From a virus: a DNA stretch of 24,226 bases. The stretch lies in the IMG/VR virus record IMGVR_UViG_3300009509_000103, positions 1-24,226 of that record; one strand, written 5' to 3'. This document shows, one piece after another, positions 799 through 24,226 of the stretch (the stretch's first letter is position 1; the number at the start of each line of letters is the position of its first letter). The notes beneath the pieces are model-generated. The model made no database searches. It saw only the letters and a list, made by a program, of their open reading frames with translations, and was not told the DNA's origin. The translations under genes and the position numbers were made by a program.

Positions 799-806
799 GC
801 CGCCTC

Positions 807-1625
807 CTAGTACAGAGTCTTGCCGTTGAAGGGGGTATCCTCAGGGGTAAACATATACCCGCCATTATTATCCGAGTTTGCGAACCTGGTGTCACACTGG
901 GTTAAGGTATGGTCGCAGCCTGGGTACAGTTCTACGCTATCTCCTATCGAGATCTCGTACATGGTAGTGGCCAGGGTGATCGCGTCACCGGTGTGGTCCA
1001 CAATCATTCTGGCTTCTTTCCTGCCATCCGGCAACTGCCACCACAGGAACCCGCCATTGAAGTAATCATTGGGCTGCCCTGCGGCCTCGAGCACGTTGAC
1101 CACATTACCAGAGATGCCGGTAATGGGCCCTATCACCCTGAAATCTGCAGCTACTACCTTACAGTCCGGGCCGTACAGGACATGCTCACATTGTCGGCCG
1201 AACTTCTTCCGCAGCCCGGTACGCTTCAGGCTGGTAGAGATAGGCTCACAGTTCAGGTGGGACTTACCTCCTGCCCATTGCGCAGAAAGAATTCGCCCGA
1301 TCCAGACGGCTACAGTCTCATTGGCTACGTCTGTCCGGTGCCGGCTGAATATCTTGAGGGTTACTACCTCACCTGGGGGGTAGGCAATGAACTGGGTAGC
1401 CACAGGAAAATCACGCGGTACGGTCAGCTTCAGTGGGGCCTTGTTCAGCTCAGCCAGATCCTCTATCTTGCCTCTTACGATAGGGGCCGGGGCGTAGTCC
1501 TTAGCAAGGTATGTCTCTACAGTATCTCCGCTAGTATAGGTCCAGCTAAACAGCCCTCGCTCAAACAGATACAGCTCTACCGGTGAGCCTCCGTACTGGG
1601 AAATCTCTTGGGCGTTATACGTCAT
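807..1625 (-). CDS. BR0599/gpL-like tail-tip protein with four paired cysteines
   Basis: This 272-residue protein matches the phage BR0599-type tip proteins, related to gene-transfer-agent hub proteins and lambda gpL. The diagnostic end is 'PGCDHTLTQC' followed by an 'R-F-x-N' motif and an Asn/Gly-rich tail (residues about 235-256). Four cysteines fall in two pairs, C146/C155 and C237/C244, with a fifth at C126. In lambda gpL and gene-transfer-agent hub proteins, paired cysteines bind an iron-sulfur cluster, so these four are candidate ligands; that is inference. The N-terminal half is beta-rich, with no signal peptide. ATG 1625 has an AGAGG site eight bases upstream, and the gene overlaps the previous one by 11 bases. 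Within the tail it should join the distal tail ring to the central hub. Confidence 0.85.
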   Translation of the reverse strand: MTYNAQEISQYGGSPVELYLFERGLFSWTYTSGDTVETYLAKDYAPAPIVRGKIEDLAELNKAPLKLTVPRDFPVATQFIAYPPGEVVTLKIFSRHRTDVANETVAVWIGRILSAQWAGGKSHLNCEPISTSLKRTGLRKKFGRQCEHVLYGPDCKVVAADFRVIGPITGISGNVVNVLEAAGQPNDYFNGGFLWWQLPDGRKEARMIVDHTGDAITLATTMYEISIGDSVELYPGCDHTLTQCDTRFANSDNNGGYMFTPEDTPFNGKTLY

Positions 1626-3315
1626 CCGGCAGACCTCTCACCATGTGATTGCATTCCACCAGCCCTGTGTTCTGCCAGGACAACTCAATCGCATCAGACT
1701 CCAGGCGACTGAACCGCAGGAAGCTGATCCTTACCACCTGTTCAGGAGAGACATCCTGCCCCATCGTGGAGGAGAGAACCAGCTCCTCCGTCTCTGCATC
1801 CTGTACCGTGGAGCTGGTAATCCTCTTGTACAGGATGTTGCCGTCATTCAGGAAGATGGCGATATCTCTTCTTCCCTTCTCTCCGATCAGGTACCGGTAA
1901 TATTCCCGGCGCTTAATCGTCATGATGGATTGCACAGAGAGCACAGGAGCGTGTAGGGTGATGTCGTCTGTGAAGGTAGGTATCCAAAGGGGATTCAGCC
2001 TGCCCTTCCTTGCATGCAGCCAGGCCCTCAGAGAGGCAATCGCCGCCCTGCCGATCCGGGTCCAGTGATAAGACTGCAAAGTAACCGGGCTCTCTCGAGT
2101 ATCGTTCACGCTGGGCCGGGACAGCTGATTGTCCAACCTCTGTACGATTCTCCTGTACTCGAAATTTACATCATCCCTCCAGTTAGGAGGTGTCTCTAAA
2201 ACTGGGTAGCTTCGATAGATAGTGGTACTGTCAACTGCAGTGACATTGGCAGTATCTTCCAATTCGAACTGCATAGACAGTTCAGCCATGGCAGTAGCGA
2301 ATGAGGAAACAGCCTGGGTATCCTTGATCCTAGCCAAGTCTGCAGGGAAGGCTAAAGCTCCCTTGGGCCATGCATAAACTAGGCTCGCCTCCAGGGTAAC
2401 TCCCCAAGTATCTACTGCTGAGATCTTTGCCGCTTCAGTCCTAGTCGGCCCGGTATAGAGGACGATATACCCTCCTACATGGTATGCCATGTACTCGGTA
2501 TCGACATAAACCGCGGTGGCTCCAATAGACGCTGCCTGGTTGAGAACTCCGACATCCATGGGTATAGGCAAAAGGAATAATTTAGACTGCCACCCCCATA
2601 GGAGAGAATCCAGGTGCTGTCGATTCTCTTTGAACACGAGGGCGTTGTAATGTATTTCTTTCCTCGGAACAGACCTGAGCTCCCTCCCTTGCTCTGTTCC
2701 GTCATAAGCTTCCAGAATGTCAGTCAGCCAAGAGAGTCTCTCTATCACAGGCTTATCCCATCTTGGTCCGAAAGGCCAAACAGCTACACGGATTCCAACT
2801 ACCGTCAGCACGGGATCTTCGCTTGGGAAATCGAAGGTATAGGAGGCATCCACAACAGGAGGGCCAGCTACAAAAGCCTCCAAAGTATGCATCCTTGATT
2901 CAAGTGGCTGATAGTCTGTAGGAGCAGCCACAGGGGCAGTCAGCAAAAGACCATCACCACCAGTAATATTTATTGTGTTCAAATTCTGAACAGTGAAGTA
3001 AGCATTCCATACTTCAACGTCATAGAGCTGGTCAGAGACCAGATTACCTAGGTCGATCTCGGTGGGGATCAGGTGAATACGGTAGTAATAGTCGTCCTCG
3101 AAGCTATGGATAGGGCCCTCCCCTGACTGCACCCGCCCCAGTTGAGCGATCGGCAGGTTATCGGTCATGCCCGAGCCGGAAGCCCCTACACTTACCTTGT
3201 CGTAGTCAACGTCCGGCCATGCCTGGAAAGCGTGCCCATCCAGGTCAGAACTGATAACCGGAGCCAGGTCAGGCTGGGTAGGTTGGGAGACAAAGAATGC
3301 GGGATGGGCAACCAT
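1615..3315 (-). CDS. Distal tail / minor tail protein, 566 aa
   Basis: This large beta-rich protein lies between the paralogous tail pair and the BR0599-type tip protein. That is the slot of the DUF2460-like or distal tail components in gene-transfer-agent-like tails. A recognisable stretch near residues 440-470 combines 'ASLRAWLHARKGRLNPLWIP' with an Asp-Asp-containing strand. This is the 'Arg/Gly-Arg … Pro-x-Trp-x-Pro-Thr' pattern common in minor tail proteins. The N-terminal third looks like an Ig-like or jelly-roll domain, and the region around 260-330 has repeated short strands. No signal peptide, coiled coil or enzymatic motif is seen. ATG at 3315 follows the previous stop by six bases with only a weak ribosome site. 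The tail role is well supported by context, but the precise subunit identity is not. Confidence 0.75.
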   Translation of the reverse strand: MVAHPAFFVSQPTQPDLAPVISSDLDGHAFQAWPDVDYDKVSVGASGSGMTDNLPIAQLGRVQSGEGPIHSFEDDYYYRIHLIPTEIDLGNLVSDQLYDVEVWNAYFTVQNLNTINITGGDGLLLTAPVAAPTDYQPLESRMHTLEAFVAGPPVVDASYTFDFPSEDPVLTVVGIRVAVWPFGPRWDKPVIERLSWLTDILEAYDGTEQGRELRSVPRKEIHYNALVFKENRQHLDSLLWGWQSKLFLLPIPMDVGVLNQAASIGATAVYVDTEYMAYHVGGYIVLYTGPTRTEAAKISAVDTWGVTLEASLVYAWPKGALAFPADLARIKDTQAVSSFATAMAELSMQFELEDTANVTAVDSTTIYRSYPVLETPPNWRDDVNFEYRRIVQRLDNQLSRPSVNDTRESPVTLQSYHWTRIGRAAIASLRAWLHARKGRLNPLWIPTFTDDITLHAPVLSVQSIMTIKRREYYRYLIGEKGRRDIAIFLNDGNILYKRITSSTVQDAETEELVLSSTMGQDVSPEQVVRISFLRFSRLESDAIELSWQNTGLVECNHMVRGLPDDV

Positions 3316-3321
3316 CAGATA

Positions 3322-4278
3322 TTACGGCCCATCGTACCGTACTGCGAAGCCCAGGTAGCCGGTCTGACATTTCGATGTGTCGGTCGAGGAGGTAGTGGAA
3401 CCCGGGTCAGTCAAACTATGGGCACTCTTCTCTGCATGCGGAAATACCATCCATTTCTCGGCTCCGAGCGTTATGATATCCCCTATGTTGTAATGCTTGA
3501 TATTAACGTATCTAGTGTGGCCAGGCTCTCCAACGATACTATTAAATGCGGAAGCCCTCCCTACATAGATGTTAATCGGTATTAAGGTAGCCTGGGTATT
3601 GAACGTATTGGGGGAGTAAGGCACCAGGTCCCTAGCATAATAGGAACCGTTGAATGCTGGGTTCCCAGCAGATAGAGTACCGTAGTTGTCTATCCAATCC
3701 CCTAGAGCTCCCTCGATATCACAGACCATCTGCATATTGCCATAGCCCCCGTTCGAGGCATATTTCGCTGCCCAAAACAGACCTATACCTACGTTAGTAG
3801 TCTGTCCTGCCTGGGTATTATAGAAGCGCGACTCCCAATTATAGAACAGAAATCTGTTCTGCAAGTTACCGGTATTATAACTGGACCCGTAGTACTGCCC
3901 TCCATTCCATGTCCCATACTTATTCAGTTCACCGAAGGTCATCCATTGCACATACAGGGTGTTGTGATTCAGCACGCACATGAACATGTCAGGAGATGAG
4001 TGGGCAAAGAAATGATACGTGCAGGGGAAGACAATATCTGGGCCCCAACAGACGGTACTTATCCTGGACACAGCCGCGCAAGGGGTTGTCAGGGTACCAC
4101 CTGATTGGCCCTGTCCTCCCTTTACCTGCAGATAAGAGGTATCGTCTGTAACCTCTGCGAAGACGTTCCCTTTGTAAAGTACGTTACCGTCCTGAGTCCA
4201 GCCATTCGCAGTCAAGAAAGTATTAATGCGACTATGCAGATCTGCATGGCTGGTTGTTGTTCCTGTATCGTATGGCAT
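3322..4278 (-). CDS. Tail structural protein, paralogue B (318 aa)
   Basis: The protein starts MPYDTGT and then has a His-x-Asp-Leu and an Ile/Phe pattern, closely matching the start of the preceding gene (MPYETGT, His-x-Asp-Leu). The C-termini also correspond: a Gly-Asp strand, then 'EKWMVFP' here against 'DTYVVMRN' there, and an end of the form 'GYxAxRxD/GFxAxKxD'. The middle is long, Tyr-, Trp- and Asn-rich and beta-type, with no similarity I can follow by eye. This family is seen next to tape measure genes in siphoviruses and is usually called a virion or minor tail protein. The last residues before the end contain a Thr/Ser-rich insert (about residues 295-303). The start codon lies three bases after the previous stop, so translation is probably coupled. 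The molecular function is unknown. Confidence 0.75.
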   Translation of the reverse strand: MPYDTGTTTSHADLHSRINTFLTANGWTQDGNVLYKGNVFAEVTDDTSYLQVKGGQGQSGGTLTTPCAAVSRISTVCWGPDIVFPCTYHFFAHSSPDMFMCVLNHNTLYVQWMTFGELNKYGTWNGGQYYGSSYNTGNLQNRFLFYNWESRFYNTQAGQTTNVGIGLFWAAKYASNGGYGNMQMVCDIEGALGDWIDNYGTLSAGNPAFNGSYYARDLVPYSPNTFNTQATLIPINIYVGRASAFNSIVGEPGHTRYVNIKHYNIGDIITLGAEKWMVFPHAEKSAHSLTDPGSTTSSTDTSKCQTGYLGFAVRYDGP

Positions 4279-4281
4279 AGC

Positions 4282-5130
4282 TTAATCCAGTTTGATTGCA
4301 ACGTAGTCTTGGAATCCGGTACGCCATGCGTTACGCATGACGACATAGGTATCCCCGCTGATAGTCATTGTATCCTCTACTGCCATACTGAATCCGCTGA
4401 TGTAGTAGATGCCGTCGAACTCGCCGTAGTGATTGGGAGTAGTTTCCCAAACTACGATAGGGAGGATAGGGTAAACGCCACCTGTGTCCCTGAGACTCTC
4501 TAGATCCCCTCCTATGAAATCGTTCTGCCAAGGCCAAGTCTTAGCCGGTACCCAAGTGCCGGCGTTGTCCCTGATCACAAACGCATTGGTATCTCCGTTC
4601 TTGAATCCAAAACCGTAAGCAGTATCGGAGTAGCGAGTAGCAGCATCCGAGGTTAACATTGACACGACCGCAAGGGGGTATGGGTACTGATTGGGGCTGG
4701 CATACGGGTTGATCTTGCCAATATAAAAAGTCTGGTAGACCGCTTCAATGTTGGCAGCGACAATGATTCTCTGCCCGTTGGCAACTAGCCAGTAAGGGAT
4801 AGAAGCATCCCACAGAGGCACTCCCTTCATCCCAGACGACCCTGGTTGAGCTTCAAAACTGTCCCCGGAACTGTACCCAGTAAACCCGCCTATCTTGAAG
4901 TTGTAATAGTCGTTCGCGACATCCTGATAGGTCTTGATCCCGACAAAGATCTCCTCAGTCTGAGTGAGCCCAGGCCCGTTCAGGATGAGTTCGTGATTGT
5001 CCCCTGTGGTGTCGTCCCGTTCGACAGTCCACTCGTTACCCGCTCCCATGATGATGGTACTGGTGACAAAGGCTTTGATTTTGGCCAGCAGGTCGTAATG
5101 ACCAGAAGCTGTTCCTGTTTCGTATGGCAT
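4282..5130 (-). CDS. Tail structural protein, paralogue A (282 aa)
   Basis: This is the first gene after the tape measure, separated by 52 bases, with a GAGG ribosome site about eight bases before ATG 5130. It begins 'MPYETGTASGHYDLLAKIKA', a conserved opening of a phage tail protein family I recognise from other siphoviruses without a firm functional name. The body is beta-rich with many aromatic residues, and the C-terminus has 'TISGDTYVVMRNAWRTGF' followed by a short strand ending in Asp. The next gene downstream shares both ends, so the two arose by duplication. By position it could form part of the distal tail tube or tip ring. No enzymatic motif or signal peptide is visible. Confidence 0.78.
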   Translation of the reverse strand: MPYETGTASGHYDLLAKIKAFVTSTIIMGAGNEWTVERDDTTGDNHELILNGPGLTQTEEIFVGIKTYQDVANDYYNFKIGGFTGYSSGDSFEAQPGSSGMKGVPLWDASIPYWLVANGQRIIVAANIEAVYQTFYIGKINPYASPNQYPYPLAVVSMLTSDAATRYSDTAYGFGFKNGDTNAFVIRDNAGTWVPAKTWPWQNDFIGGDLESLRDTGGVYPILPIVVWETTPNHYGEFDGIYYISGFSMAVEDTMTISGDTYVVMRNAWRTGFQDYVAIKLD

Positions 5131-8100: not shown

Positions 8101-11100
8101 CGGTATCTCCACGCAACGCCGCATACAGTCTAGGATTCTCAGACTGGATTCGTTCAAACTCCTGTACGAACACCTCCTCCTCTGACCCTTCGACAAGATC
8201 CCTAGTCTTGAGTCTAGAGTATCGTTCTGTCAGATCCTTACCTACACTGCGAATCTTTCGGAATGCCTCGAGATAATCTGAGATCATGGAGGCAAGGAGC
8301 TGATCCTGCTCTGCAGTAATATTTTCTAGCTGAGCACCAGTATCTTGTTGCAGCTTTTGAAGTGCAGCTCTCCTGGCTCCAGAACCGGACTCAGACGCCG
8401 GCCCTTTAGCCAGCTCCTCGAAAGCGTTAATCAAATCATCCAGGTTGCCTATGTCCTGAAAGAAACTCTTCCTAAGAGAGGCTCTAGCTCTATCCAAACG
8501 ATTCCCTTCTTCCTGCAATAATGCAGCAGTCGTACCAGTCTGCGCCTCTACTCCAGCTTCCTTATCTGTAAACTGATATTGTTCAAACGCCTGAGTAGTT
8601 TTCTCCAGGGCCTGCCGATCTCTAGTAGTCTTCTGCTTCTGAGCTTTTAATTTTTTCTGGATGTCTTCAAACTCTTGTCTCTGGTCAGTAGCGTCTTCAG
8701 AGAAAGCCTGCCAAGCTTCGTACCCGGCATAGAGAGCGGTTAAAGCAATCCCTATCGGGTTGGTCCTACCAAACAGTTTTACTGCAGACCACAGTTTGGA
8801 AAACCCAGCCTTGATAACTCCAAAGAATCCGCCTACTGAACTGAGAGCGGCCCCTGCAACAAAGAGGGTTTCGGTCAAGAGACCGCTAAATCCTCCTGAT
8901 ATTCCCCTTAGTTCTCCTAGTTTGTCCTTGACCCCAGCTACTTTTCCAGCACCAATACCTTTGGTTAGAGATAGAAAACCTGCGGCTGTCAGAAGGGTAT
9001 TGATAATGTCTAGAGAGGCTTCTGCATCCTCCGTGGTAACAGCACCCTCCTGCGCCTCCTGCAAGGTATTGAATCCACCATAAGCGCCAGCGGCTGCTCC
9101 GGCCGTCGCCCCGATTACCCTTCGTAAAGGCTGGCCTCCTATTAAAGCACCTCCGGCAAACCCCCCAGCAAGAGCAGTCCCAAAGATACCTCCGATACCT
9201 TCTCCACCGCGAGCTTTAAGATCCAGGTCCATCTGGTCCAGAGCGTTGACTACATTAGTGGCTTCTTTAGCCAGCTCCTGCAAGGCTTGGATAGGCCCTT
9301 CCGTGATGTCGGCAGCCAATACAGTCATGGCCGCTCCCAGGTTGTCCAGGGTATTAGACAGAGACTCCATCTGAGTAGCAGAAGCCTCAGCAGCTGCACC
9401 TCCCAAGGAAATCCTGGCTTCTGCCTCTTCCAGCTTATCCAGATTATTGATCAGAGCACTGATGGCATTCTCTGCCCGGATATCGAAAGCACGGGCAAAA
9501 GTCTGCTTACCTTCCCCGGTGAACCCAAGCCTATTCAGCTCTTTCAGAGCCGTTAACAGAGGGTTAGCGGTGGCTTGAAACCCGGCAAACTTCTGCCGTA
9601 TCTCTGTCTGATTCAGATTTTCCCCGATCTCCTCATACCGCTGAACAAATGCCTTAATTGATTTTGAATCTGGACTGAAAATCTCGAGCAGCCCCTGCCG
9701 CAGACCAGTAGCTACAGTAGAAGCCTTAAGGCCTGCATTGCGCAGAGTAGTAACTGCAGCTAGATATTGATCACCTGATAGTTCAAATGATTGGGCTATC
9801 TGAGCAGAGATAGAGAGAACAACTCGCAGGTCTTCACCTGTGAGTTTGGATATGTTGATGGCCTTCGTCAGCTTATCTGCTATCTGGATGTCTTCAAGCT
9901 CAGTGAAGACATTACGCATTGTGGAAGCTACATCAGCCGCAGTCTCTAACGAGGTTTCGGTACCAGCAGCAAACTGAGCTACGCTGGACAGGACTGTATT
10001 GATTTGCTCTGGCTCAACACCAGCCTGTGCCAGCACCCTGGCAGCTTTGGCAATCTCTGATACAGAGAACTTGGTTGTAGTAGCTACTGTCTTGATTGCC
10101 CCCTCAATGGAGAGCATCTGCTCCTCAGTAGAGGCAGAGATTGCCTGGATAGACTTCAACTCCTTATCCAGTTCAACTACCCCCTTAGTAAGGGCAGAGA
10201 TAGCCCCTAAAGCCTTGTACAGGGCTCCGTAGCCAAGGGCATAGCGAAAGAACTGACGGAGCAGGAGGCCAGTCTCACCTAGGCGATCGCGTAGGTTGCC
10301 TGATTTTTTGGCAAGCTCCTCGAATTCCCGGCTGGTTCCGGTAATAGAACTACCACCACCTCCGCCGAACCCCCCAAGTCCAGCTCTAGCTTGATCCTGG
10401 GTAGCGGCTATCTTCTGAATAATCTTCAGCTGCCTAGTCAGCCCGGCATTGATAGTGTCTATTTGTTGAAGCCGCTGCCGCCTGGAAGCACTACTATTCA
10501 GCTTCTCCATTGCACGGAGTCGGTCTTCTTCTAACTTCAATAGCTCACGAGCACTCTTAATCTCGCTAGTAGAAGTAAATCCGCCCTTGCCTGGTTGCAA
10601 GGTAACTCTCCTACCAAGTTCAGCGATTTCAGCTTTGCGGGCAGTAGCCGCACGGAGAGCATCCAATTCTTCCTTGGATTGTTTGATAGCAGCGTCAGCT
10701 TGTCTCTTTTTATCCGCAGCTGCTTTTCTACTAGCCTGTTCAGCCTCGCGTTGTATTTTCTGGCGGAGCTTTATCTCCTCCAGAAGTATCGGCTCTGCTT
10801 GGCGAATAGCAGCTAGACGCCTTTCCTCAAAACCGTAAACAGTCTCCCCGTTACGCTTTAGGAGGTCGATCCGCTTAGCTTCTGTGCTAAGTAAACTTTG
10901 TGCTCTGGCAAGGTCCTTGTCTGAATACAAGGCAAAGCCTGACTTTAAGGCTTCATCCGCAATCTGCCCAGCAGCTACTCTAGGCCTAGCTCTGGCTTGA
11001 GCTGCTCTCAGAGCTCTGGCTTGAGCGTCAGCCCTTCTCTTATCTTCGATAAGAGCAGCATCCTCCATTTTCCCTTGATCTTGTATCTCCTTTTGCTTCG

Positions 11101-12043
11101 CTTTAGTCCTTTTCTCATCAGCGATAAGAGCAGCATCCTCCATTTTCCCTCGATCTTGTATCTCCTTTTGCTTCGCTTTAGTCCTTTTCTCATCAGCGAT
11201 AAGAGCAGCATCTTCTATCTGTCCGCGCTTTTGTAATAGTTTTTCAGCCTGGTCAATGGCTGCCTGATTCTCTTTATTGATAGCGTCTTGCACTACCTTC
11301 AGCTGCTGCCGGCCGCCGATAGGAACCGCAGCACCTTGAACATCCAGCGCCGGAGTAAGAGCTGCCCGGCTACCTGTCCGGTCTCTTAATATCTTGTCCC
11401 CAAGTACGTATTCAGGCCCGAATACAGGCTCTGTTACAGCTCTACCTCCAGCTGCAGCCTTACGGACACGCTCTCTAGCAGTCAACAATTGCTCTACAGC
11501 TTCTGCCGCTTGCTTTACACGCTCCAGATCTTTGTCAGGGATTATTCCGCCTTTCTGAAATCCGTTGTATAGCTCCTGAGTCTTCTTTCCCAGTTTGTTA
11601 TACTTGGATAATGCCTCGACCATCTGAGTCTGAGCTAGCCTGGCATCTTTAAGTCCTTCCAGATCTGCTATACCTAGAGGCTGAAGCCTATCCACCAAGG
11701 CTTGTCTAGCCTGGGCTGCTCCCTTCAGATCCCTACCCAATTTGTCCTTGAACAGGTCATCGAACATACTGGTGCGTAAAGTCTCACCAATTTTCTTTTG
11801 GTCGATAGCCTTAGTAATCGATTGAAGTTCTGTCTGAAGAAACTTCCGAGACCTATCCAGAGTACGCTTATCAAGCCTTACGTCAGCACTGATATTGATC
11901 TTCCCAGCATCCACAGTCACAGACCGTAGAGTACGTTCAATATCTTGCTGAATAGAGTTTATCGCTTGCTTCTGATTGACAACTCCGGCAGTGCCAAGAC
12001 GAATACCGGCAACGACATCAAGGATAAGATTGTTATCAGCCAT
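5183..12043 (-). CDS. Tape measure protein, 2286 aa
   Basis: This is the longest gene of the window, directly after the tail assembly chaperone with a two-base gap. The tape measure sets tail length and is thought to be ejected to help DNA cross the cell envelope. Residues 1-580 are charged and predicted coiled coil, with a 25-residue tandem repeat near 275-349. A TP901-type tail-tape core follows from about 590 to 900 ('SVSEIAKAARVLAQAGVEPE' region). About 945-1115 holds Gly/Ala-rich hydrophobic segments suited to membrane insertion. A long heptad-like region runs to about 1920. The end is Gly-rich with 'GPGTGLSDSI' and 'GESILTAKATQMIG', typical of tape measure C-termini. The length is far above the roughly 850 residues of lambda gpH. 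No lytic transglycosylase or peptidase motif was seen by eye. The start lacks a strong ribosome site, consistent with coupling. Confidence 0.95.
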   Translation of the reverse strand: MADNNLILDVVAGIRLGTAGVVNQKQAINSIQQDIERTLRSVTVDAGKINISADVRLDKRTLDRSRKFLQTELQSITKAIDQKKIGETLRTSMFDDLFKDKLGRDLKGAAQARQALVDRLQPLGIADLEGLKDARLAQTQMVEALSKYNKLGKKTQELYNGFQKGGIIPDKDLERVKQAAEAVEQLLTARERVRKAAAGGRAVTEPVFGPEYVLGDKILRDRTGSRAALTPALDVQGAAVPIGGRQQLKVVQDAINKENQAAIDQAEKLLQKRGQIEDAALIADEKRTKAKQKEIQDRGKMEDAALIADEKRTKAKQKEIQDQGKMEDAALIEDKRRADAQARALRAAQARARPRVAAGQIADEALKSGFALYSDKDLARAQSLLSTEAKRIDLLKRNGETVYGFEERRLAAIRQAEPILLEEIKLRQKIQREAEQASRKAAADKKRQADAAIKQSKEELDALRAATARKAEIAELGRRVTLQPGKGGFTSTSEIKSARELLKLEEDRLRAMEKLNSSASRRQRLQQIDTINAGLTRQLKIIQKIAATQDQARAGLGGFGGGGGSSITGTSREFEELAKKSGNLRDRLGETGLLLRQFFRYALGYGALYKALGAISALTKGVVELDKELKSIQAISASTEEQMLSIEGAIKTVATTTKFSVSEIAKAARVLAQAGVEPEQINTVLSSVAQFAAGTETSLETAADVASTMRNVFTELEDIQIADKLTKAINISKLTGEDLRVVLSISAQIAQSFELSGDQYLAAVTTLRNAGLKASTVATGLRQGLLEIFSPDSKSIKAFVQRYEEIGENLNQTEIRQKFAGFQATANPLLTALKELNRLGFTGEGKQTFARAFDIRAENAISALINNLDKLEEAEARISLGGAAAEASATQMESLSNTLDNLGAAMTVLAADITEGPIQALQELAKEATNVVNALDQMDLDLKARGGEGIGGIFGTALAGGFAGGALIGGQPLRRVIGATAGAAAGAYGGFNTLQEAQEGAVTTEDAEASLDIINTLLTAAGFLSLTKGIGAGKVAGVKDKLGELRGISGGFSGLLTETLFVAGAALSSVGGFFGVIKAGFSKLWSAVKLFGRTNPIGIALTALYAGYEAWQAFSEDATDQRQEFEDIQKKLKAQKQKTTRDRQALEKTTQAFEQYQFTDKEAGVEAQTGTTAALLQEEGNRLDRARASLRKSFFQDIGNLDDLINAFEELAKGPASESGSGARRAALQKLQQDTGAQLENITAEQDQLLASMISDYLEAFRKIRSVGKDLTERYSRLKTRDLVEGSEEEVFVQEFERIQSENPRLYAALRGDTAALAEIGGITGLFDSLKKMYSAIYIRGQKVIDAGLEKGVDNLANEFSTEVDGIVQGVKTGQLTFTDAQAKLRAEIDKLMSTGRTSFKALQEAYAVVERKMAELQGLASEAYATLRAAASPGQAPRELSPLEGGFDSPASYAPAQTVPEAGATVTASEEGKRLLEETKKEIKAGSDRQQQVGEEANRLAEERANALYENIQQNAEMLRNDQIIITALGAGGTEAFRLYNAALSADREEFDELVRARNRDLSEQTNIDVRTLTASAEKVLKQVEQSRSRQIKIDDEKRQVTELQRFAPDPAIALRTAQLDTRIAELTKIKSPELFSPDSPIYQKANLEAQEIVKQISQIGEDLSKISGDQSLDAFKKRQKLNTDLNQLLAKRNKTLEAANKAVNDARFAYEKQTLEAQKELAEAQKSRVAQQLQNAVQAGNFSEMEALQDERVRINEQLLKAEERLLRHAGKSEELVRLRIDNERKAQLAAEQRARADELIAATKKNLRNVGTTATTGNVVEDAARAARGLNLTDAEKLDSYAASAAKITAEIGRLQQKLGDPMVEQAPLLEELEALNIQLATLEGQFDRLDTDGFEQMFRAFDPKLIAVDLQNLQSAFQNLGDTIRSEIVGAIDEIGPSLFDAIVDGEDALSVLQNIAYEMFRNIGREAAGSLVNSLSQQLLAQFESQDTRDLFGSIFGLAGENIEAARGAAIERQPEGAGAFGGLLTESGTTTSAAVANVTGQVVNVNGGIAGAEATSGVLSRISEASETQVDIGEETLQKSEGWFSQLGTLLTDGLKGLGGFLSGLFGGGSSGGAGGGLLQTGLSLLTGLFGAAGGAEAIGTRQGAVTSSGVIAGPGTGLSDSIAAALFHRGGVEPIAVSAGESILTAKATQMIGADQIARWNKGIIRGFAEGMVPASAGSAKAAKLQIPVQAPPKVDASTKIVNVVDKDLVHDYMSSSSGERVVLNVIQKNPGAVKQYLG
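11030..11221 (-). repeat. 75-bp tandem repeat inside the tape measure gene
   Basis: Three consecutive units of 75 bp (25 codons) begin at about 11221, 11146 and 11071 on the minus strand. The first two are nearly identical and the third degrades after about 40 bases. The encoded unit carries 'EDAALIADEKRTKAKQKEIQ', strongly charged and helical. It keeps the reading frame, so copy number changes would lengthen the coiled coil of the tape measure by 25 residues per unit. Confidence 0.9.
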
Positions 12044-16651: not shown

Positions 16652-17893
16652 TTAGTAAACGATTGTCGTGCAGCGGAATGCTGTATCGTACAACCGGTAA
16701 GCCATTCTTCCCCAGTCAACCCGGAAGAAGTTACTGCGCTGCATTACCATTTCCTCGGTAGCCGAGTAGCTGGCAGACGCATTAACTACCTGACGGATAG
16801 CGAAGCGACTGTCAAAGCCCATGATAATGTTGGCACCCAGGACAGAAGTATCAACGATCAGGACACGAGGCTCAGGAATGTTGATGTTGGCCTGCTGAGG
16901 AGTTACATCCAGCAGGGCAGTACCCACATTACCTACACTTGCACCGCCGGTATTCGGATCATAGATGACCGGCCGGCCAGTACGCTGTTGAATAGCCAGG
17001 AAGGTATCCAAATCAGTGATGATAGAGTCGATCTGGATTGCTCGAGTAGGATCCCACAAGAACTTCAGCCAGCCTTTCTGAGTAACTACACCAGTAGTGG
17101 CAGCAGAGTCATAACTATTGAAGTCTGCCACTGACAAGGCAGCGTCACCAGTGTCGAGATTACCTGCCTTGATCGCAGTGATGTCTCTCCAGAGATCCCG
17201 CTGAGACTCACCGGCAGCCTGCTGGGCAAAGATAATACCCAACAGATCCAGCGATGTACGCTGAAGCGCCTGCTGAGAAATCTGCAGGCCGATCGAGTTG
17301 GTAGTAATACTCTTGGCGGTCTCACTCGTGGTAATCGAAACCATAGTGCGCGGCAAAGCGTTCTGAGATATAGGCGCAGAATCAACAGCACGCGGCGCAG
17401 AGGTATTGATCTTCGGCTGCGTAAACATCTCAGTAGGAATCGTCTCTGTACCAGAGATCATGGAATTCCAAACCTGCTGTTCCAGGTCCTGGTTACCATA
17501 CAAGGTATCATTGATAATCTGGAGTACAGTCTCTGGGAAAAATACCCGGGTTGACGGGGTAGTACCCTGCTGAGACGGGGCAACAATACCTGTGCCTCCC
17601 CCAGAGAGGGAACCCCCAGCCATAGCTGGTTTGATCTTACCTGACAGCATGTCTCCGACAGTCGTAGCAAGGATGCCACGCTCCGGGATTGCCTTGGTAT
17701 AAATACCCAGGCTCTGCTGTCCTTGTTTGAAAACCGAGCCGTATTTCTCGACATCAGCGTCAGGATACTTCAGCGCCAGAAGCTGGGATACAGACATCCC
17801 ATTTTCAGAAGCGGTACGATAATCCTCAAGCGTCAACTGACCCTGTTTGGGCACGTCTCCGGAGGCGTAGTAGTTAAAAGTTGCAACAGTCAT
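16652..17893 (-). CDS. Major capsid protein, 413 aa
   Basis: This protein should form the icosahedral shell with the HK97 fold. It follows protease/scaffold and decoration genes, has a strong GGAG site (six bases before ATG) and is followed by an intrinsic terminator, all usual for the most expressed virion gene. Residues 1-110 are Gln/Gly/Ser-rich and could be the N-terminal arm or a part removed by the S49 protease. From about 115 ('TRVFFPETVLQIIND') the sequence takes on the mixed helix/strand character of the capsid core. This includes the loop near 'NALPRTMVSITTSE' and the C-terminal strands 'MVMQRSNFFRVDWGRMAYRL' and the final Cys-Thr-Thr-Ile. No self-crosslinking Lys/Asn pair can be identified by eye. 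Confidence 0.85.
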   Translation of the reverse strand: MTVATFNYYASGDVPKQGQLTLEDYRTASENGMSVSQLLALKYPDADVEKYGSVFKQGQQSLGIYTKAIPERGILATTVGDMLSGKIKPAMAGGSLSGGGTGIVAPSQQGTTPSTRVFFPETVLQIINDTLYGNQDLEQQVWNSMISGTETIPTEMFTQPKINTSAPRAVDSAPISQNALPRTMVSITTSETAKSITTNSIGLQISQQALQRTSLDLLGIIFAQQAAGESQRDLWRDITAIKAGNLDTGDAALSVADFNSYDSAATTGVVTQKGWLKFLWDPTRAIQIDSIITDLDTFLAIQQRTGRPVIYDPNTGGASVGNVGTALLDVTPQQANINIPEPRVLIVDTSVLGANIIMGFDSRFAIRQVVNASASYSATEEMVMQRSNFFRVDWGRMAYRLYDTAFRCTTIVY

Positions 17894-18370: not shown

Positions 18371-18904
18371 TTAACCCCTCGACTGTACAGGTACAATCCC
18401 GAGACGGGCAACCTGGGCGGTAGGTTCTTCCATTGCCTGTGAGGTCTGTCTCCCGACCTTGAACTGGGCATCGAAGTCTTTTCTGGTAGCCTCGTACTTG
18501 GCTACTACAGCAGCCGGAGACATACCCTGGAAATTGGTTTCGGCTCGACGTAGGCCAATTTCCATACGATTGATTTGCGCTCCTAGTCCGTCAGCAAGAG
18601 ACTCAACGACGGATTCAGAAGATGAGAGTTTGGCTTTAGCTTCATCCAACTCACGCTGAAGAATCGCATTCTGAGCAGACAGCTCAACCAGCCTGGCTAC
18701 AACTTTATCATCCCCTGCCTGCGGTGCTGAGGTAACGGTAGTAGTTGTAGTCTCTACGGGAGCTGCGGTAGCTTCTACTTCTACCTCCTGCTCCTCAGCT
18801 ACAACTTCCTCATGGTCAAAGTTCTCCAGCGGAGCTCCGGCTGCTACCGCGGCCCGGTCCTCCTCAGAATGGAGGATAACTTCTCGTCTGTTTTCAAGGC
18901 TCAT
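18371..18904 (-). CDS. Nested in-frame scaffold protein, 177 aa (internal start in protease gene)
   Basis: An ATG at 18904, codon 300 of the protease gene, is preceded by CCGGAG with eight bases between GGAG and ATG, as good as the site of the capsid gene. Translation from here gives a protein that starts MSLENRREVILHSEEDR and is acidic over residues 15-50. It has a Thr-rich stretch at about 51-57 and a coiled coil with 'ELSAQNAILQRELDEAKAKL' at about 74-93. It ends with the same C-terminus as the protease. That is the arrangement of lambda C and Nu3, where free scaffold is made in excess over the fused protease. The internal start is read directly; its use is inferred. Confidence 0.8.
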   Translation of the reverse strand: MSLENRREVILHSEEDRAAVAAGAPLENFDHEEVVAEEQEVEVEATAAPVETTTTTVTSAPQAGDDKVVARLVELSAQNAILQRELDEAKAKLSSSESVVESLADGLGAQINRMEIGLRRAETNFQGMSPAAVVAKYEATRKDFDAQFKVGRQTSQAMEEPTAQVARLGIVPVQSRG

Positions 18905-19801
18905 CTGGCTATCTCCGGTGTTATTACGGCTATTGTTGGCGGCTGAGAATTGATTGTCAACCGCGTCAGTATCTTCAAGGGAAACTATTAACTCTTCAGG
19001 GGACAATATCTTATCAGCGAGGCCTATCTCTACTGCCTCCTCACCAAAGAACATCTGGCCCTCTCCCCATTCAGACTTGGAGCTCAAGCTGAGCCCTCTC
19101 GATTTAGAAACATGATTCAGAAAGAACCCATGTAATGAGTCGAGTTCTTTTTGTAATATTCCTTGATCTCGTTCGCTAAGCTTTTCAAATTGAGAGCCAG
19201 GGGCCTTATATTTACCGGCGCGAATGACTGTTGCTTCTACTCCCATCTCTTCCAACATCCCTACCATGGACAAGTGGGTAGCAATAACACCGATAGAACC
19301 GAGTTGCGACATTTCAGTGGAGTATATTTTTCTTGCTGTAGCGCCAATCCAATACGCAGCAGATGCCATATTGCCGCCGGTAGTAGCATAAACAGGCTTG
19401 ATTGAATTTACGGCTTTCAAGCTGCGGGAGACAGACTCAATACCAGAAGCAGAACCGCCTCCTGAATCTATGTCCAGGACGATCGCAGTGATACCGTCAT
19501 CTGCCATCAGTTCAGAAGCGGCACGAATGATTTCAGGGTATGTAGTAAGACCAAAGAACCTGGCACGCCAATCATCCTTATTGGTCATACCGCCTTTAAT
19601 CTCGATTACCCCAACATTGTTGAATTCTTTAATCAGGTAAGACTCGAATCTCTTATCCTGTTCTTCCTCGTCATCATCTTCCCAGGCCCGGAACTGGGCC
19701 TTCTGTTCAAGCGTAGGGATTGGGTTGGCTGCAATGTATTCCAGGTACCTGACATACCCTTCTGCAGACGCCTCAGAACCTAACCATATTTCACCTTTCA
19801 C
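18371..19801 (-). CDS. S49-family prohead protease with C-terminal scaffold domain, 476 aa
   Basis: This is a signal-peptide-peptidase-like (S49, lambda gpC-type) serine protease that matures the prohead. Residues 107-127 contain 'DIDSGGGSASG'. The nucleophile is the Ser in 'GGNMASAAYW' (S147) and the general base Lys lies in 'AGKYKAPG' (K199). No signal peptide is present, so it acts in the cytoplasm. The region after about 280 is different in character: Asn/Ser linker, Glu/Thr/Val-rich segment, then a coiled coil (about 365-420). This is a scaffold-type domain. The start is GTG 19801 in a GTGA overlap with the portal stop, with GGAGGAG seven bases upstream. An internal start makes the scaffold alone (see nested feature). 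The protease should also remove the scaffold and part of the capsid N-terminus. Confidence 0.92.
   Translation of the reverse strand: MKGEIWLGSEASAEGYVRYLEYIAANPIPTLEQKAQFRAWEDDDEEEQDKRFESYLIKEFNNVGVIEIKGGMTNKDDWRARFFGLTTYPEIIRAASELMADDGITAIVLDIDSGGGSASGIESVSRSLKAVNSIKPVYATTGGNMASAAYWIGATARKIYSTEMSQLGSIGVIATHLSMVGMLEEMGVEATVIRAGKYKAPGSQFEKLSERDQGILQKELDSLHGFFLNHVSKSRGLSLSSKSEWGEGQMFFGEEAVEIGLADKILSPEELIVSLEDTDAVDNQFSAANNSRNNTGDSQMSLENRREVILHSEEDRAAVAAGAPLENFDHEEVVAEEQEVEVEATAAPVETTTTTVTSAPQAGDDKVVARLVELSAQNAILQRELDEAKAKLSSSESVVESLADGLGAQINRMEIGLRRAETNFQGMSPAAVVAKYEATRKDFDAQFKVGRQTSQAMEEPTAQVARLGIVPVQSRG
18913..18918 (-). promoter_or_regulatory. Internal ribosome binding site for the nested scaffold
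   Basis: CCGGAG on the minus strand, with GGAG eight bases before the in-frame ATG at 18904. The surrounding protease codons encode an Asn/Thr/Gly/Ser linker, a place where an added ribosome site costs little protein function. Confidence 0.78.
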
Positions 19802-21234
19802 TGAGATGCTCCTCCGGCTTTACTCGGGGTTTTAGGGACCAATGCGGATTGTTGTGCACCGTTCGTCATAGCGACCTGATCTGCAGGCATAATACCTTTC
19901 TGATGGAAGAAGGTTCCAGATAACACCGGAGCTCCTTCAGGCCGTTCTCCGGTCTGTAACAAGATAGCAGCCTCGTCATCTGTAATAAACCCTAAGGACA
20001 GCTGCTCGAGTATGCGGTCCTGCTTCATAGATTTGTAAGCTTCCAGTTCATCCTCTGGCCGCAAGTTGATTGGGTTGAATCCTACTCGTACGTAGGCGTT
20101 CACCCCATACAGTCTGACAGCTAAGGTGATTGCCCTGCTGAGCACGTCCTTTACCGGTCGTTGTATTGCCTTCGCACCTTTCAGAAAAATCAAAGACTCA
20201 GTATTCGACAGGCTCTGGGATCCTTGCATGCGTAGGCCAAGGATAGACGGATGAGACTTCAAGCTGGTAGCCAGCTGACCAGACATCGTTTCCCACAACT
20301 TTGTATAGTCTTCTTTTACACTACGATCACTCATCAAGTCGGGCTTCGCAGTGTCGTAAATAACCAAGGCATCCTCTGGTTCCATATCGGAAGCGACCTT
20401 CTTAACATCATCCATAATCTGGGTCATGAACGCAGTGAGCTTAGTATGGTCCTTCCTCACTTCAGCAGGGGCAGCGGCTATAACCTTCTCAGAATCCAGC
20501 GTGATCATTACCCTACTATGTCCAGACTTCCTGACCACTCTCCGCATATCTTCGATGAACTCCTCAAAGTAGTATACAGAGTCAAGGGCTGGCTCCATCA
20601 AAGACGTAGCGTATGCAGTAGTGAGATCCTGATGGAGAGTGGCTACCCAGAAAGTTGGGATGTTTAGAGATACGTCCTCTCCTGTAGCAGTGTATGACCC
20701 CTTCTGAACAGGGTACTTACCTCCATTCCCGTCGGATTCCCATTTCAATGATTCAAACGGTGCCAGGACAATCTGTGAAGGTAACCTTGCTTTGTCTAAA
20801 ACCAACTCACCAGCACATTGGCTGGTGAGAGTTACTTCCCGGAGAGCAGTCTCTACCAGATGATCGACTGTCATCTGATCTGAATACCCACTGTAATCGT
20901 CCAAGGTACTGATAGCGGATAGGAAGCTCTGTGCCAGCCGGGTAGCTTCTACAGAGAATTTGTCAGTGATGCTATCGTAGGCTTTCACTGTAAGGCCGCT
21001 GTTTGCAATCTCAACGAAATTGAATACAGCAGAGGATAGCGTCCCTTCCTTACGTGCCATGAGACGGAGAGCTTGAGATACTGCCCCGGTTCCTCTCAAC
21101 GAACGAATGGCAGCGTTATAAATCGGGATATTGTTGTCAGGTATGGTGGACCCGCTAGGGTACCTAGAAGCCGCAGTTGAAGCGGTAGCTCTGGTAGCCA
21201 GCTTGCGTGGTAATATGACTTGGCTATCTGGCAT
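19798..21234 (-). CDS. Portal protein, 478 aa
   Basis: The portal is the dodecameric gate at one capsid vertex through which DNA enters and leaves. The gene lies between terminase and prohead protease and has the usual length. The ATG at 21234, 11 bases inside the end of the terminase gene, is preferred over an upstream in-frame start at 21303 that would overlap more. The protein has an N-terminal segment rich in Ser/Ala. A helical wing region follows ('RLMARKEGTLSSAVFNFVEI'), then a beta-rich clip/stem part. Near 400-440 is 'NLRPEDELEAYKSMKQDRIL' followed by 'LGFITDDEAAILL', characteristic of portal C-terminal regions. The last 40 residues are Gln/Pro/Gly-rich and flexible. The ribosome site is weak, suggesting coupling. 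Confidence 0.9.
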   Translation of the reverse strand: MPDSQVILPRKLATRATASTAASRYPSGSTIPDNNIPIYNAAIRSLRGTGAVSQALRLMARKEGTLSSAVFNFVEIANSGLTVKAYDSITDKFSVEATRLAQSFLSAISTLDDYSGYSDQMTVDHLVETALREVTLTSQCAGELVLDKARLPSQIVLAPFESLKWESDGNGGKYPVQKGSYTATGEDVSLNIPTFWVATLHQDLTTAYATSLMEPALDSVYYFEEFIEDMRRVVRKSGHSRVMITLDSEKVIAAAPAEVRKDHTKLTAFMTQIMDDVKKVASDMEPEDALVIYDTAKPDLMSDRSVKEDYTKLWETMSGQLATSLKSHPSILGLRMQGSQSLSNTESLIFLKGAKAIQRPVKDVLSRAITLAVRLYGVNAYVRVGFNPINLRPEDELEAYKSMKQDRILEQLSLGFITDDEAAILLQTGERPEGAPVLSGTFFHQKGIMPADQVAMTNGAQQSALVPKTPSKAGGASQ

Positions 21235-22972
21235 AGTCGTAACCGTCTTTATCTCGATGAATTGTCTTAAGCTTAACAGACGATGCCATTGGTAGTACAC
21301 CAATCACATTGCCTGCTAACTCGTTAGCATTCAATGTATCTGCGATCATCAAATAATTAAGAGCATGAGCATAGTGGTCCGGGCCACTGTTAACCCAATG
21401 GGCTACATCATCTCCGGCTGCATTTTGCTTAGTCACTCTCTTAATCGCACGGAGATGTTCTTTTACTGCTTCTATCTGATCATTCTTGCAAAATTGTACT
21501 CGCCCAGTGTTCACTTGTTTTACCGTATGGTCGATCGTACCTGTTCGATACGACTTGGCGATCTGCTCAGCCTCGTCCAACTGAAAATTGGTAAGCTTGG
21601 AAGGAGCACTGCGGGTGTAATAGTTGGCGTATACCTGACCAAACAGCCCAGACGTTATCAGAGCCAAGGCTATAGAGAAATCAGGCCCGGCATCGACTAC
21701 AGCCCGGGAACACCCAAAATACTCAAGCAGTTCCTGGGCTCTGGTTATAGCTGCATTTTCTCCAAATGAGTTGACATTCTGACGGACAGATTCCGCATGG
21801 ATAATTTCCATGCGCATAGGGTTGATCCTACGCCCTACCATGATATGGCAAACTTTGCCAACGTCCATTCCCAATACGCATCCGGAAGCTGCCATAGGTT
21901 GAGGTACTACCGGGCGAATGGAAAAAGCTCTCTCCAACGCTGTGGATAAAATTGAAGTCTCAGCATCCTCGAACGGCAAGCCTACCTTAAAATTTACCCA
22001 GTCAGCTTTGCGTTCATATTTTTCTATTTGCCCTAAGGTGTCACCTACCGAGCTGATCATTGGTGCGTCGAAAGGAGATACCTGGTATCCGTGCCTGGGA
22101 TGGTCAGGTTTTGCGTGTACCCACTGTCTCTTATCCGGGTCAGCCAGATTCTTAGGCTTCAACTCATTGTGGCAAGTAGGGCATTTCAACCAAGCCTTAG
22201 ACACATCCAGATTCTTTTCGAGGATGTCAGCCTTCTCAAATTTTAAAAGGTGGTCATCGAACCTTGGAAGTACTACGTGCTCGAAAAACTCAGGCATTAC
22301 CCATTGATGGCAGCTGTCACATTTAACGGCATAATGAGCTTGTGACGAGTTCTCCATTCCAGCACTAATCCCGATTCCAGATACGGTAGGGGTAGAAAAC
22401 CGGCGCTTCAATCCACCATTCTCTGCATGACCTAAACGAGATTCATACGTAGTCAGGACCACTGGATTAGAAAAATCCACCTCATCATTAACCAGCATGT
22501 CGGCCGGCACAGAGATAGCAGCACTTTGGGTGAAAGTACCGGCTATATGTAAGAAGGACCGGCCTATCTGCTTCAAGCCTGCCGAGTCTGAATCAGAAGG
22601 GACCATGCCAGACAATGATTGGCTGGCAGAAATAATAGGATCCAACCTGGACTTAGAAAACTTAGCTGCAAAGGACGAAGTTGGTAGCGTGTAAATAGCT
22701 GTGTGATTTTGTTTCACCGCCAGATAGGCCAGTGTCAGCCTGGCAAATATCTCAGACACTCCTACCTGGGAGCATTTACGGACATCAACTTCTGCAGCGG
22801 AGTCATTAACAATGTCCCGTTGAAATTCGTGGCCTCTAAAGTTCCATGGCTTCTTATCATCCTTAGGGTGTTTGGTATTCCTGACAATCCAGTCTGACAG
22901 ATGCGAGAGATCAGTATGGGTCTGTGCCTCGGCCTTTAGGCGGTCCAGGAATGCTTGAGCTACCGGATTCAT
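21224..22972 (-). CDS. Terminase large subunit, GpA family (582 aa)
   Basis: ATP-driven DNA packaging motor with a C-terminal endonuclease, like lambda gpA. From ATG 22972, a deviant Walker A (R-K-C-S-Q-V-G-V-S) falls near residues 65-73. A Walker B with D163/E164 lies in 'MLVNDEVDFSN'. Two Cys-x-x-Cys pairs near 218/221 and 264/267 fit the metal-binding insert of the GpA family. The nuclease region has D370 in 'GMDVGK', D426/D430 in 'VVDAGPD' and D532 in 'PDHYAHALNYL', a typical three-metal-site pattern. ATG 22972 gives an ATGA overlap with the preceding gene; a TTG at 22981 in the same frame is less likely. No small terminase subunit is encoded in this window. Confidence 0.95.
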   Translation of the reverse strand: MNPVAQAFLDRLKAEAQTHTDLSHLSDWIVRNTKHPKDDKKPWNFRGHEFQRDIVNDSAAEVDVRKCSQVGVSEIFARLTLAYLAVKQNHTAIYTLPTSSFAAKFSKSRLDPIISASQSLSGMVPSDSDSAGLKQIGRSFLHIAGTFTQSAAISVPADMLVNDEVDFSNPVVLTTYESRLGHAENGGLKRRFSTPTVSGIGISAGMENSSQAHYAVKCDSCHQWVMPEFFEHVVLPRFDDHLLKFEKADILEKNLDVSKAWLKCPTCHNELKPKNLADPDKRQWVHAKPDHPRHGYQVSPFDAPMISSVGDTLGQIEKYERKADWVNFKVGLPFEDAETSILSTALERAFSIRPVVPQPMAASGCVLGMDVGKVCHIMVGRRINPMRMEIIHAESVRQNVNSFGENAAITRAQELLEYFGCSRAVVDAGPDFSIALALITSGLFGQVYANYYTRSAPSKLTNFQLDEAEQIAKSYRTGTIDHTVKQVNTGRVQFCKNDQIEAVKEHLRAIKRVTKQNAAGDDVAHWVNSGPDHYAHALNYLMIADTLNANELAGNVIGVLPMASSVKLKTIHRDKDGYDYAR

Positions 22973-23310
22973 GCAGCGCAAGCCGGAGAAGTATCACAAT
23001 CGTTGATGGCCGCTTTCAGGTTACATACTTTCTGTCCTACTGGGCCTTCGATAGTTAAGATATCAATGACGGCAATGTACTTGTCTGCTTGAACTAAATT
23101 GGTAGTGGCCTTCAAAGTACCGCGGTATACCCCGTCAGAAGATGGTACATAATCCATCGTAGTAGGCCAGGTCTGTCCAGTAAGGTTAGTACCGTCAGAA
23201 TCCTTTACCGTGAAACTGACTGTCGCATCGTTGATTGGTAGACCAGTCTTTGAATTAATGACCACGGCCTCTATGACGTTATCGTTGTTTACGTAAACCG
23301 TGCTGTACAT
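22969..23310 (-). CDS. Small Ig-like virion protein candidate, 113 aa
   Basis: ATG 23310 is preceded by a strong GGAGG five bases upstream. The start sits inside the 3' end of the repeat-protein gene, overlapping by 22 bases. The protein is a single beta-sandwich-like domain. It begins 'YSTVYVNNDNVIEAVVIN' and contains 'TGLPINDATVSFTV', 'DSDGTNLTGQTWPTTMDYV' and 'GVYRGTLKA', then a final strand with two Cys near the end. I recognise the 'T-G-x-x-I-N-D-A-T-V' and 'G-x-Y-R/x-G' layout from short phage Ig-like proteins of unknown role. Placement between the repeat protein and terminase suggests a virion surface or assembly role. An in-frame start further upstream (23382) is disfavoured because it ignores the ribosome site. 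Confidence 0.72.
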   Translation of the reverse strand: MYSTVYVNNDNVIEAVVINSKTGLPINDATVSFTVKDSDGTNLTGQTWPTTMDYVPSSDGVYRGTLKATTNLVQADKYIAVIDILTIEGPVGQKVCNLKAAINDCDTSPACAA

Positions 23311-24226
23311 GTTACCTCCGGGTAAATAGCGGCAGTAACGCCTACTTCTGGGTATGCAGTAATCGTAGCTGCAGGGTACCACTTCTCCAGCAGAGACTTA
23401 TAGGTAGAAGCTGCACCAGAGAAGGTGATCTGGCCAGCTCCGGTATGTGAGTATACCTTTTCTTGAGCAGAGCTTGCTGCACCAGAGAAGGTAATAACTC
23501 CACTGCCGGAATAAGAATGGGTTACCGTACCAGCCTGGTAGCTGGTAGTAGCAGCACCAGAGAATGTCAGAAAGCCGGAGGCGTTGTAACTGAAGGTGCT
23601 GAATATACCTGTAACAGCAGCCCCTGAGAAAACTATCTGGCCGGAACCGGAGTAACTCAGGTTATGTGAAACAGATGCTACCGCTGCCCCGGAAAAAGTT
23701 ATCTCTCCGCTGGCGTTATAGGCGAAGATATGTTGTACGGTTGTAGCTGCTGATCCTGAATAGGTAATACCACCTGAAGCAGCGTAACTGTAGTTCTTAA
23801 TAAGCGCAGTCGCGGCTGTATCAGAGAACGTAATTGCTCCAGAACCGGTATAGTCGTACGCCCGTTCTTTATTGGTGGTAGCCGCGCCGGAGAAGGTGAT
23901 AGAGCCGGAGGCTGCGTAACTGTAAGCATGCTCTACCGAGGTGGTAGCCGCGCCGGAGAATGTGATCGATCCGGAGGCTGCGTAACTGTAAGCATGCTCT
24001 ACCGAGGTGGTGGCCGCACCTGAGAATGTGATCGATCCGGAGGCTGCGTAACTGTAAGCATGTTCTACCGAGGTGGTGGCCGCACCTGAGAATGTGATCG
24101 ATCCGGAGGCCGCATAATCATAAGCCTCAGCTGTTCCGGTGGTGGCCGCTCCGGAGAACGTGATCGAGCCGGAGGCTGCGTAGCTGTAAGCATGTTCTAC
24201 CGAGGTGGTGGCCGCGCCGGAGAACG
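23289..24226 (-). CDS. Repeat-rich beta protein, C-terminal part (starts outside window)
   Basis: The frame is open from the right window edge to a TAA at 23289-23291, covering 311 codons plus the stop. It is composed of about twelve units of 22 residues (one of 25). Each unit carries a Gly-x-Ile-Thr-Phe-Ser-Gly-Ala-Ala core, a variable six- or seven-residue stretch and a Tyr-Ser-Tyr-Ala-Ala-Ser or similar end. Alternating hydrophobic and Ser/Thr residues plus Gly turns suggest two beta strands per unit and a stacked solenoid or fibre. Units near the left (C-terminal) end are diverged. The last 30 residues leave the pattern and contain two 'YPEV' motifs. No enzymatic motif is seen. I do not recognise the family; a virion fibre, head decoration or adhesin is possible. 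Confidence 0.85.
   Translation of the reverse strand, partial: FSGAATTSVEHAYSYAASGSITFSGAATTGTAEAYDYAASGSITFSGAATTSVEHAYSYAASGSITFSGAATTSVEHAYSYAASGSITFSGAATTSVEHAYSYAASGSITFSGAATTNKERAYDYTGSGAITFSDTAATALIKNYSYAASGGITYSGSAATTVQHIFAYNASGEITFSGAAVASVSHNLSYSGSGQIVFSGAAVTGIFSTFSYNASGFLTFSGAATTSYQAGTVTHSYSGSGVITFSGAASSAQEKVYSHTGAGQITFSGAASTYKSLLEKWYPAATITAYPEVGVTAAIYPEVTCTARFT
23869..24226 (-). repeat. 66-bp tandem repeat block in the repeat-protein gene
   Basis: Unit starts, counted on the plus strand, fall at about 23869, 23935, 24001, 24067, 24133 and 24199, exactly 66 bases apart. The units at 23935 and 24001 differ by only about four bases, and the first two thirds of the one at 24067 matches the one at 24001. 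Units below 23869 keep the period in protein but are diverged in DNA. The block continues past the right edge of the window, so the total copy number is unknown. Confidence 0.95.

Follow-up and report, generated by a model that had tools for sequence, protein, structure and literature searches.

A 22-residue repeat protein and its Ig-like neighbour before the terminase gene of an uncultured phage: a candidate modular fibre stalk

Repetitive fibres in described phages

Phage fibres determine the surfaces to which a virus can stick, and most of those from uncultured phages match no family. In lactococcal phages, the N-terminal domain of the baseplate protein BppU is a small Ig-like adaptor that adjoins a fibre. 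Head fibres of the T4 Hoc and Hoc-like type are modular and repetitive, with an Ig-like component, a C-terminal attachment part, and variable modules (PMC10385173). The BACON tandem repeats of crAss-like phages, some encoded in head and some in tail regions, arise by internal duplication of single units and by horizontal transfer (PMC6949934). Finally, three cultured cyanophages (Mae-JY02 and Mel-JY03 of Microcystis, and Pan4 of Pseudanabaena, gp26) encode a repeat array followed by a small protein that resembles the Ig type. The Mae-JY02 arrangement comprises a glycine-rich N-terminal domain, an array of 20-residue repeats, and then a small protein of 125 residues. For Pan4, structural proteins identified by mass spectrometry are reported (PMC9837993).

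The locus described here has something in common with each. It lies at one end of the window, the whole stretch of 24,226 nucleotides that was analysed (IMG/VR virus record IMGVR_UViG_3300009509_000103). The gene pair of the window would share the modular plan of Hoc; however, each Hoc repeat is a whole Ig domain in a chain that also contains the capsid-binding domain, whereas the window has 22-residue units and a separate Ig-like gene. Pfam and PHROG scans of its repeat protein found no Hoc-homologous C-terminal capsid-binding domain. Like the BACON proteins, it is a tandem beta-repeat protein, probably of virion type; unlike them, it is built from 22-residue units rather than whole Ig-like domains, and is encoded by the terminase rather than by tail genes. 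No BACON domain was matched by Pfam. The BppU domain offers a lead only: both it and the window's Ig-like protein, for which a Pfam scan returned no match, are small Ig-like neighbours of a repetitive or fibre protein. The cyanophage arrays share the repeat-then-Ig order but differ in their period of 20 and in their place after tail and lysis genes.

The repeat gene and its neighbours

The relevant features, all on the minus strand, are:

23289..24224 (-): tandem-repeat, candidate structural protein gene; 311 codons visible, 5' end beyond the contig edge
23895..24224 (-): units 0-4; units 0, 2, 3 and 4 encode the same protein, unit 1 is a variant (from the unit matrix and pS/pN)
23424..23894 (-): diverged units (5-11), including the 25-residue unit 10
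23289..23423 (-): C-terminal part, with beta-like 10-residue repeats (AATITAYPEV/GVTAAIYPEV/TCTARFT)
22969..23310 (-): Ig-like small protein, 113 residues; start 22 nt inside the repeat gene
21224..22981 (-): terminase large subunit (start 22981 or 22972); PF05876 1.6e-18, phrog_675 1.2e-104
19798..21303 (-): portal protein; phrog_3753 6.2e-85
18371..19801 (-): head maturation protease, S49 family; PF01343 2.9e-36
16652..17893 (-): major head protein; phrog_3922 1.4e-37

The operon thus runs from the repeat gene through the Ig-like gene (22-nt overlap) and the terminase to the portal, protease, and major head protein. The repeat frame, read from 24224 to 23289, runs unbroken through 311 codons and is still open where the contig stops. 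Twelve units, of which unit 10 has 25 residues and the others 22, precede a 45-residue C-terminal part. Residue autocorrelation peaks at a lag of 22 (mean BLOSUM score 2.42, versus -0.03 +/- 0.06 for shuffled sequence), and at the DNA level TRF reports a period of 66 with 5.3 copies and 86% match (23874-24224). The Ig-like gene (23310..22969) has a GGAGGT Shine-Dalgarno sequence within the codons of the last 10-residue unit of the repeat gene (reverse complement, CCCGGAGGTAACATG). These results bear out three claims of a sequence-only reading of this DNA: an unbroken frame; a gene for 22-residue beta repeats just upstream of the packaging genes; and an overlapping Ig-like gene that the large terminase gene adjoins (phrog_675, 1.2e-104).

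The repeat protein itself matched no family in the Pfam and PHROG scans, tail fibre families included. A sequence search against solved structures gave no match below 0.25, and a plasmid search gave none. Genome contigs scanned with the repeat and Ig alignments yielded pattern hits, of which 0 were confirmed.

Identity among the units

Units 0, 2, 3, and 4 encode identical protein from DNA that is 89-98% identical. Unit 1 is a diverged interloper (71-76% identical to these four), and units 5-11 show 41-68% identity to other units. This is a step, not the smooth gradient from diverged 3' units to near-identical upstream units that had been proposed. Pairwise, units 0, 2, 3, and 4 have pS values of 0.28-0.40 with a pN of 0; the exception is the pair 2 and 3, with a pS of 0.06 and 65 of 66 nucleotides identical. 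The interval 23935-24132 had been read as nearly identical DNA, but its three 66-mers agree at 62/66, 57/66, and 54/66 positions pairwise, and units 2 and 3 are the sole pair that looks fresh. High synonymous divergence with no amino-acid change suggests that these units are mostly old copies kept the same by selection. Nevertheless, lag-66 DNA identity in units 0-5 is 0.806, compared with 0.665 +/- 0.019 when synonymous codons are shuffled. DNA similarity therefore exceeds that forced by the protein repeat, and some shared ancestry or conversion is real.

Recent duplication on the upstream side thus fails as a general account, given the pS values between most of the identical-protein units. 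Ongoing expansion in the manner of a microsatellite, with copy number varying within the population and tuning fibre length, would predict fresh pairs such as units 2 and 3, and could also explain why the window and its close relative differ by one 10-residue unit (below). It is nonetheless unlikely: the remaining identical-protein units stand at pS 0.28-0.40, and length is constant or nearly so in two other families of such genes. In five contigs with 95-100% DNA identity (L033-L037) the repeat gene is 879 bp in each, and in Mae-JY02, Mel-JY03, and Pan4 (89-96% identity) its length agrees within one codon. This constancy argues against the variable copy number predicted among relatives; the arrays of the window and its close relative are cut by contig ends.

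Short-read assembly typically breaks off at near-identical repeats, and the contig indeed ends inside the array both in the window and in its relative (L002/L003), the only two contigs in which it is known. The near-identity at the contig end might then reflect a collapsed or mis-joined repeat. This is quite improbable, as units 0-4 are five distinct DNA sequences, each with its own synonymous pattern, and the remainder of the array is confirmed by the independent contig. On the sequence evidence, only the pair of units 2 and 3 and the true unit count appear doubtful as to assembly.

Divergence from the close relative

The sole close relative, contig 3300010413_001486 (L002/L003), encodes a repeat protein 93% identical to that of the window. 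The two contigs are near-identical across most of the terminase-to-head region and divergent in the repeat gene, where 25 synonymous and 4 non-synonymous changes were counted. Mismatches reach 9/66 and 12/100 in units 5-6, whereas the portal and protease genes mostly show 0-1 per 100. Unit 5 has a pS of 0.41 and unit 6 a pS of 0.48, with 3 non-synonymous changes, whereas pS is 0.014 for the portal, 0.028 for TerL, and 0.036 for the major head protein. Divergence peaks at units 5-6 and has disappeared by unit 11 and the C-terminal part. The sole length difference seen is one extra 10-residue unit in the C-terminal tail of L002.

The sharp contrast between divergent units 5-6 and near-identical portal and TerL genes suggests a recombination junction within the repeat gene, together with purifying selection on the protein. 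Divergence concentrated in this gene is as expected for a recombining surface gene.

Divergence from L003 rises once more, to a lesser extent, within the major head protein gene (17227-17526; at most 6 mismatches per 100, with neighbours at 0-2).

Predicted folds

The AlphaFold model of the repeat protein has three short strands per 22 residues, with a pTM of 0.72 and a mean pLDDT of 64; pLDDT is mostly 64-85 in units 0-4 and lower in later units. The input was the window protein with seven relatives (8 sequences) as a monomer, from which a trimeric beta fibre would escape recovery. A Foldseek search of the model against the PDB gave no match below 0.001, and the matches listed are largely beta-helical proteins. 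Among viral structures none passes 0.001, the best being an uncharacterised Caudovirales protein (1.3e-3). A solenoid-like stalk fold is thus predicted with moderate confidence.

The model of the Ig-like protein has six beta strands (pLDDT 62). Its top PDB matches are mostly Ig-domain proteins, with a TM score of about 0.45 and a best E value of 1.1e-3. From these models, a beta-solenoid for the repeat protein and an Ig fold for the small protein are plausible rather than established.

Association of repeat and Ig-like genes

A search of the phage collection with the window's Ig-like protein gave no match. An iterated profile joined it in the first round to L027/L110 (one and the same contig), L048 (E 3e-18), and L047 (E 4e-7), and a second scan reached 16 loci. 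Of 12 distinct loci, 7 have a repeat protein with a 20- or 22-residue period at most three genes upstream (the window, L110, L114, L115/L116, L117, L118-L120, and L122) and the other five do not (L109, L111, L112, L113, and L121). This count takes identical loci once and only loci with sequence upstream; it includes the profile seeds (the window and L122/L047), without which it is 5 of 10. By comparison, 2 of 100 other ORFs of at least 150 residues from the same loci, duplicate loci included, pass the threshold. The L117 cassette gene is one of the two, so the background is about 1 in 100.

Tails with a 10-residue period like that of the window were seen by eye in L110, L115, L118, and L122. 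Moreover, the 22-residue repeat protein of L039 carries at its C-terminus a fused domain that matches phrog_1084 (9e-6) and resembles small Ig-type proteins; this fusion hints that the repeat and Ig-type functions belong together. Two Ig-type families occur in the slot before the terminase; hhalign gave no support for homology between them (probability 0.7%).

Three loci also encode, several genes upstream of their Ig-family gene, long proteins that by eye look like glycosyltransferase/methyltransferase fusions (L109:510-3389; L110:2836-4989; L113:2114-4897).

The slot before the terminase gene

A profile search gathered 80 loci with related terminases. Many have a helical, TerS-like gene near the terminase (41 profile hits), a label inferred from composition and location. 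The window's closest lineages have long beta-rich genes that take its place or lie in between. Repeat proteins with an exact 22-residue period precede TerL in L039 (579 residues), L047 (777 residues), and L060/L013 (729 residues). These three lineages and the window share the period, with no unit similarity to the window by eye. The L060 repeat gene is the second gene before the terminase, and small genes intervene in L047 and L039. In L007 the slot holds a tail-fibre match (phrog_19567, 4.8e-10) and a small protein before TerL; fibre-like neighbours were seen in L043, L049, and L102. Slot-gene labels are scattered over the TerL tree. As judged from gene content, then, the slot in this clade holds exchangeable fibre-type genes, and the position just before the large terminase gene is a place of fibre gene swapping.

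The annotations of the cultured relatives Lana, PMBT3, UAntarctica, and SHOU24 show neither a fibre-like gene nor a repeat gene immediately before the terminase. The first three have short hypothetical genes there, and SHOU24 has the portal gene in opposite orientation. The view that the repeat gene is not a standard neighbour in this operon therefore applies to cultured relatives; in the uncultured clade it fails, fibre-type genes being common in the slot.

Adjacency to TerL is the one observation that would favour a non-structural accessory of packaging or regulation. Such a role is most improbable, since a conserved helical TerS-like gene lies near the slot in many relatives, whereas in the closest lineages the slot is filled by beta-rich, repetitive genes that are exchanged.

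Repeat relatives in other neighbourhoods

Relatives of the repeat protein are also encoded within head modules, ahead of the gene for the major head protein (MCP). The gene in L025 (290 residues) lies between MuF and scaffold/MCP; that in L024 (1771 residues) directly before protease and MCP; and those in L033-L037 (292 residues) between portal and scaffold/MCP. Scaffold and portal were assigned by position in these loci, and without profile confirmation in L033-L037. In Mae-JY02 and Pan4, the gene follows the tail and lysis genes. The window's repeat matches those of Mae-JY02 (E 9e-7, about 33% identity) and Skermania SPI1 (E 2e-7), matches that may reflect convergence or composition, the sequence being biased. 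The phage collection gave no match to the L025, L115, or L118 proteins. N-terminal globular modules on such repeat proteins include an RCC1 propeller (L024), Gly_rich_2 (Mae-JY02), and a weak Beta_helix match (L047).

The L024 protein (L024:2008-7323) is of note for its size: 1771 residues, in which the RCC1 propeller gives way to a very long run of repeats of this type.

Two Microcystis phages have the repeat protein annotated as a glycerophosphodiester phosphodiesterase (PP395635.1 18828-20720, L020:7008-8900; PP395636.1 18831-20720, L123:2011-3900). This name looks wrong, because Pfam finds only the glycine-rich domain in the Mae-JY02 copy.

A candidate fibre stalk and its attachment

Together, these observations are explained best, and with somewhat better than even probability, if the repeat gene encodes the stalk of a modular virion fibre and the Ig-like gene its partner, both lying in a slot beside the terminase where fibre genes are exchanged. 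The repeat product would be the stalk of a surface fibre, an adhesin-like structural protein. Its 22-residue units would fold into a repetitive beta structure, for which a solenoid of roughly one coil per unit is the likeliest form, and the 10-residue beta repeats of the tail would terminate the stalk. As a partner or adaptor, the Ig-like protein, whose overlapping gene has its ribosome site in the tail's codons, would link fibre and virion. Units would stay identical through purifying selection on the repeated geometry of the stalk, with occasional unit duplication, and recombination would refill the slot with modular fibre genes.

Where such a stalk attaches is a separate matter. By analogy with T4 Hoc, the protein might be a head fibre or a capsid or neck decoration, bound to the head through its C-terminal part and the Ig-like partner, with the repeats projecting outward. 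The repeat gene does stand at the head end of the operon, relatives lie in the head modules of L024, L025, and L033-L037, and the L110 pair adjoins probable head-tail joining genes; however, probable tail genes come before the L115 pair and lysis-type genes after it, and the Mae-JY02 and Pan4 genes follow tail and lysis genes. Attachment to the head is possible but less likely than not. A side tail fibre or baseplate fibre for host adsorption is likewise possible, though short of probable. It would suit the tail-fibre match in the same slot of L007, the fibre-like neighbours in L043, L049, and L102, and the crAssphage BACON repeats flanked by tail genes (PMC6949934), but the window's own tail-tip genes (1-3315; phrog_1082, 778, 1101) are at the opposite end, about 20 kb away. 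As repeat relatives sit by head genes in some loci and by tail or lysis genes in others, position is not diagnostic of attachment. The earlier suggestion of a head fibre or decoration thus stands in part: the repetitive beta protein is still taken as a probable virion fibre or decoration, and position gives no decision for head over tail.

More speculatively, the window may represent a widespread, undescribed class of fibre: a solenoid stalk with its period fixed at 20 or 22 residues and its sequence freely replaced, served by a dedicated Ig-like clamp. The cassette would occupy head, tail, and terminase positions, the terminase slot being the exchange site in this clade. Such an architecture (20- or 22-residue period, 10-residue tail, and Ig-like partner) would allow fibres to be found by pattern where sequence similarity fails.

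Two further features of the window lie in and after the tape measure gene. After the tape measure gene, two adjacent and paralogous-looking genes (3322-4278 and 4282-5130; 318 and 282 residues) both match phrog_687, a structural protein. The tape measure gene itself contains an in-frame 75-bp tandem repeat (11033-11212; 2.4 copies, 95% match) that encodes 25-residue units (GKMEDAALIADEKRTKAKQKEIQD), probably a length-changing coiled-coil segment.
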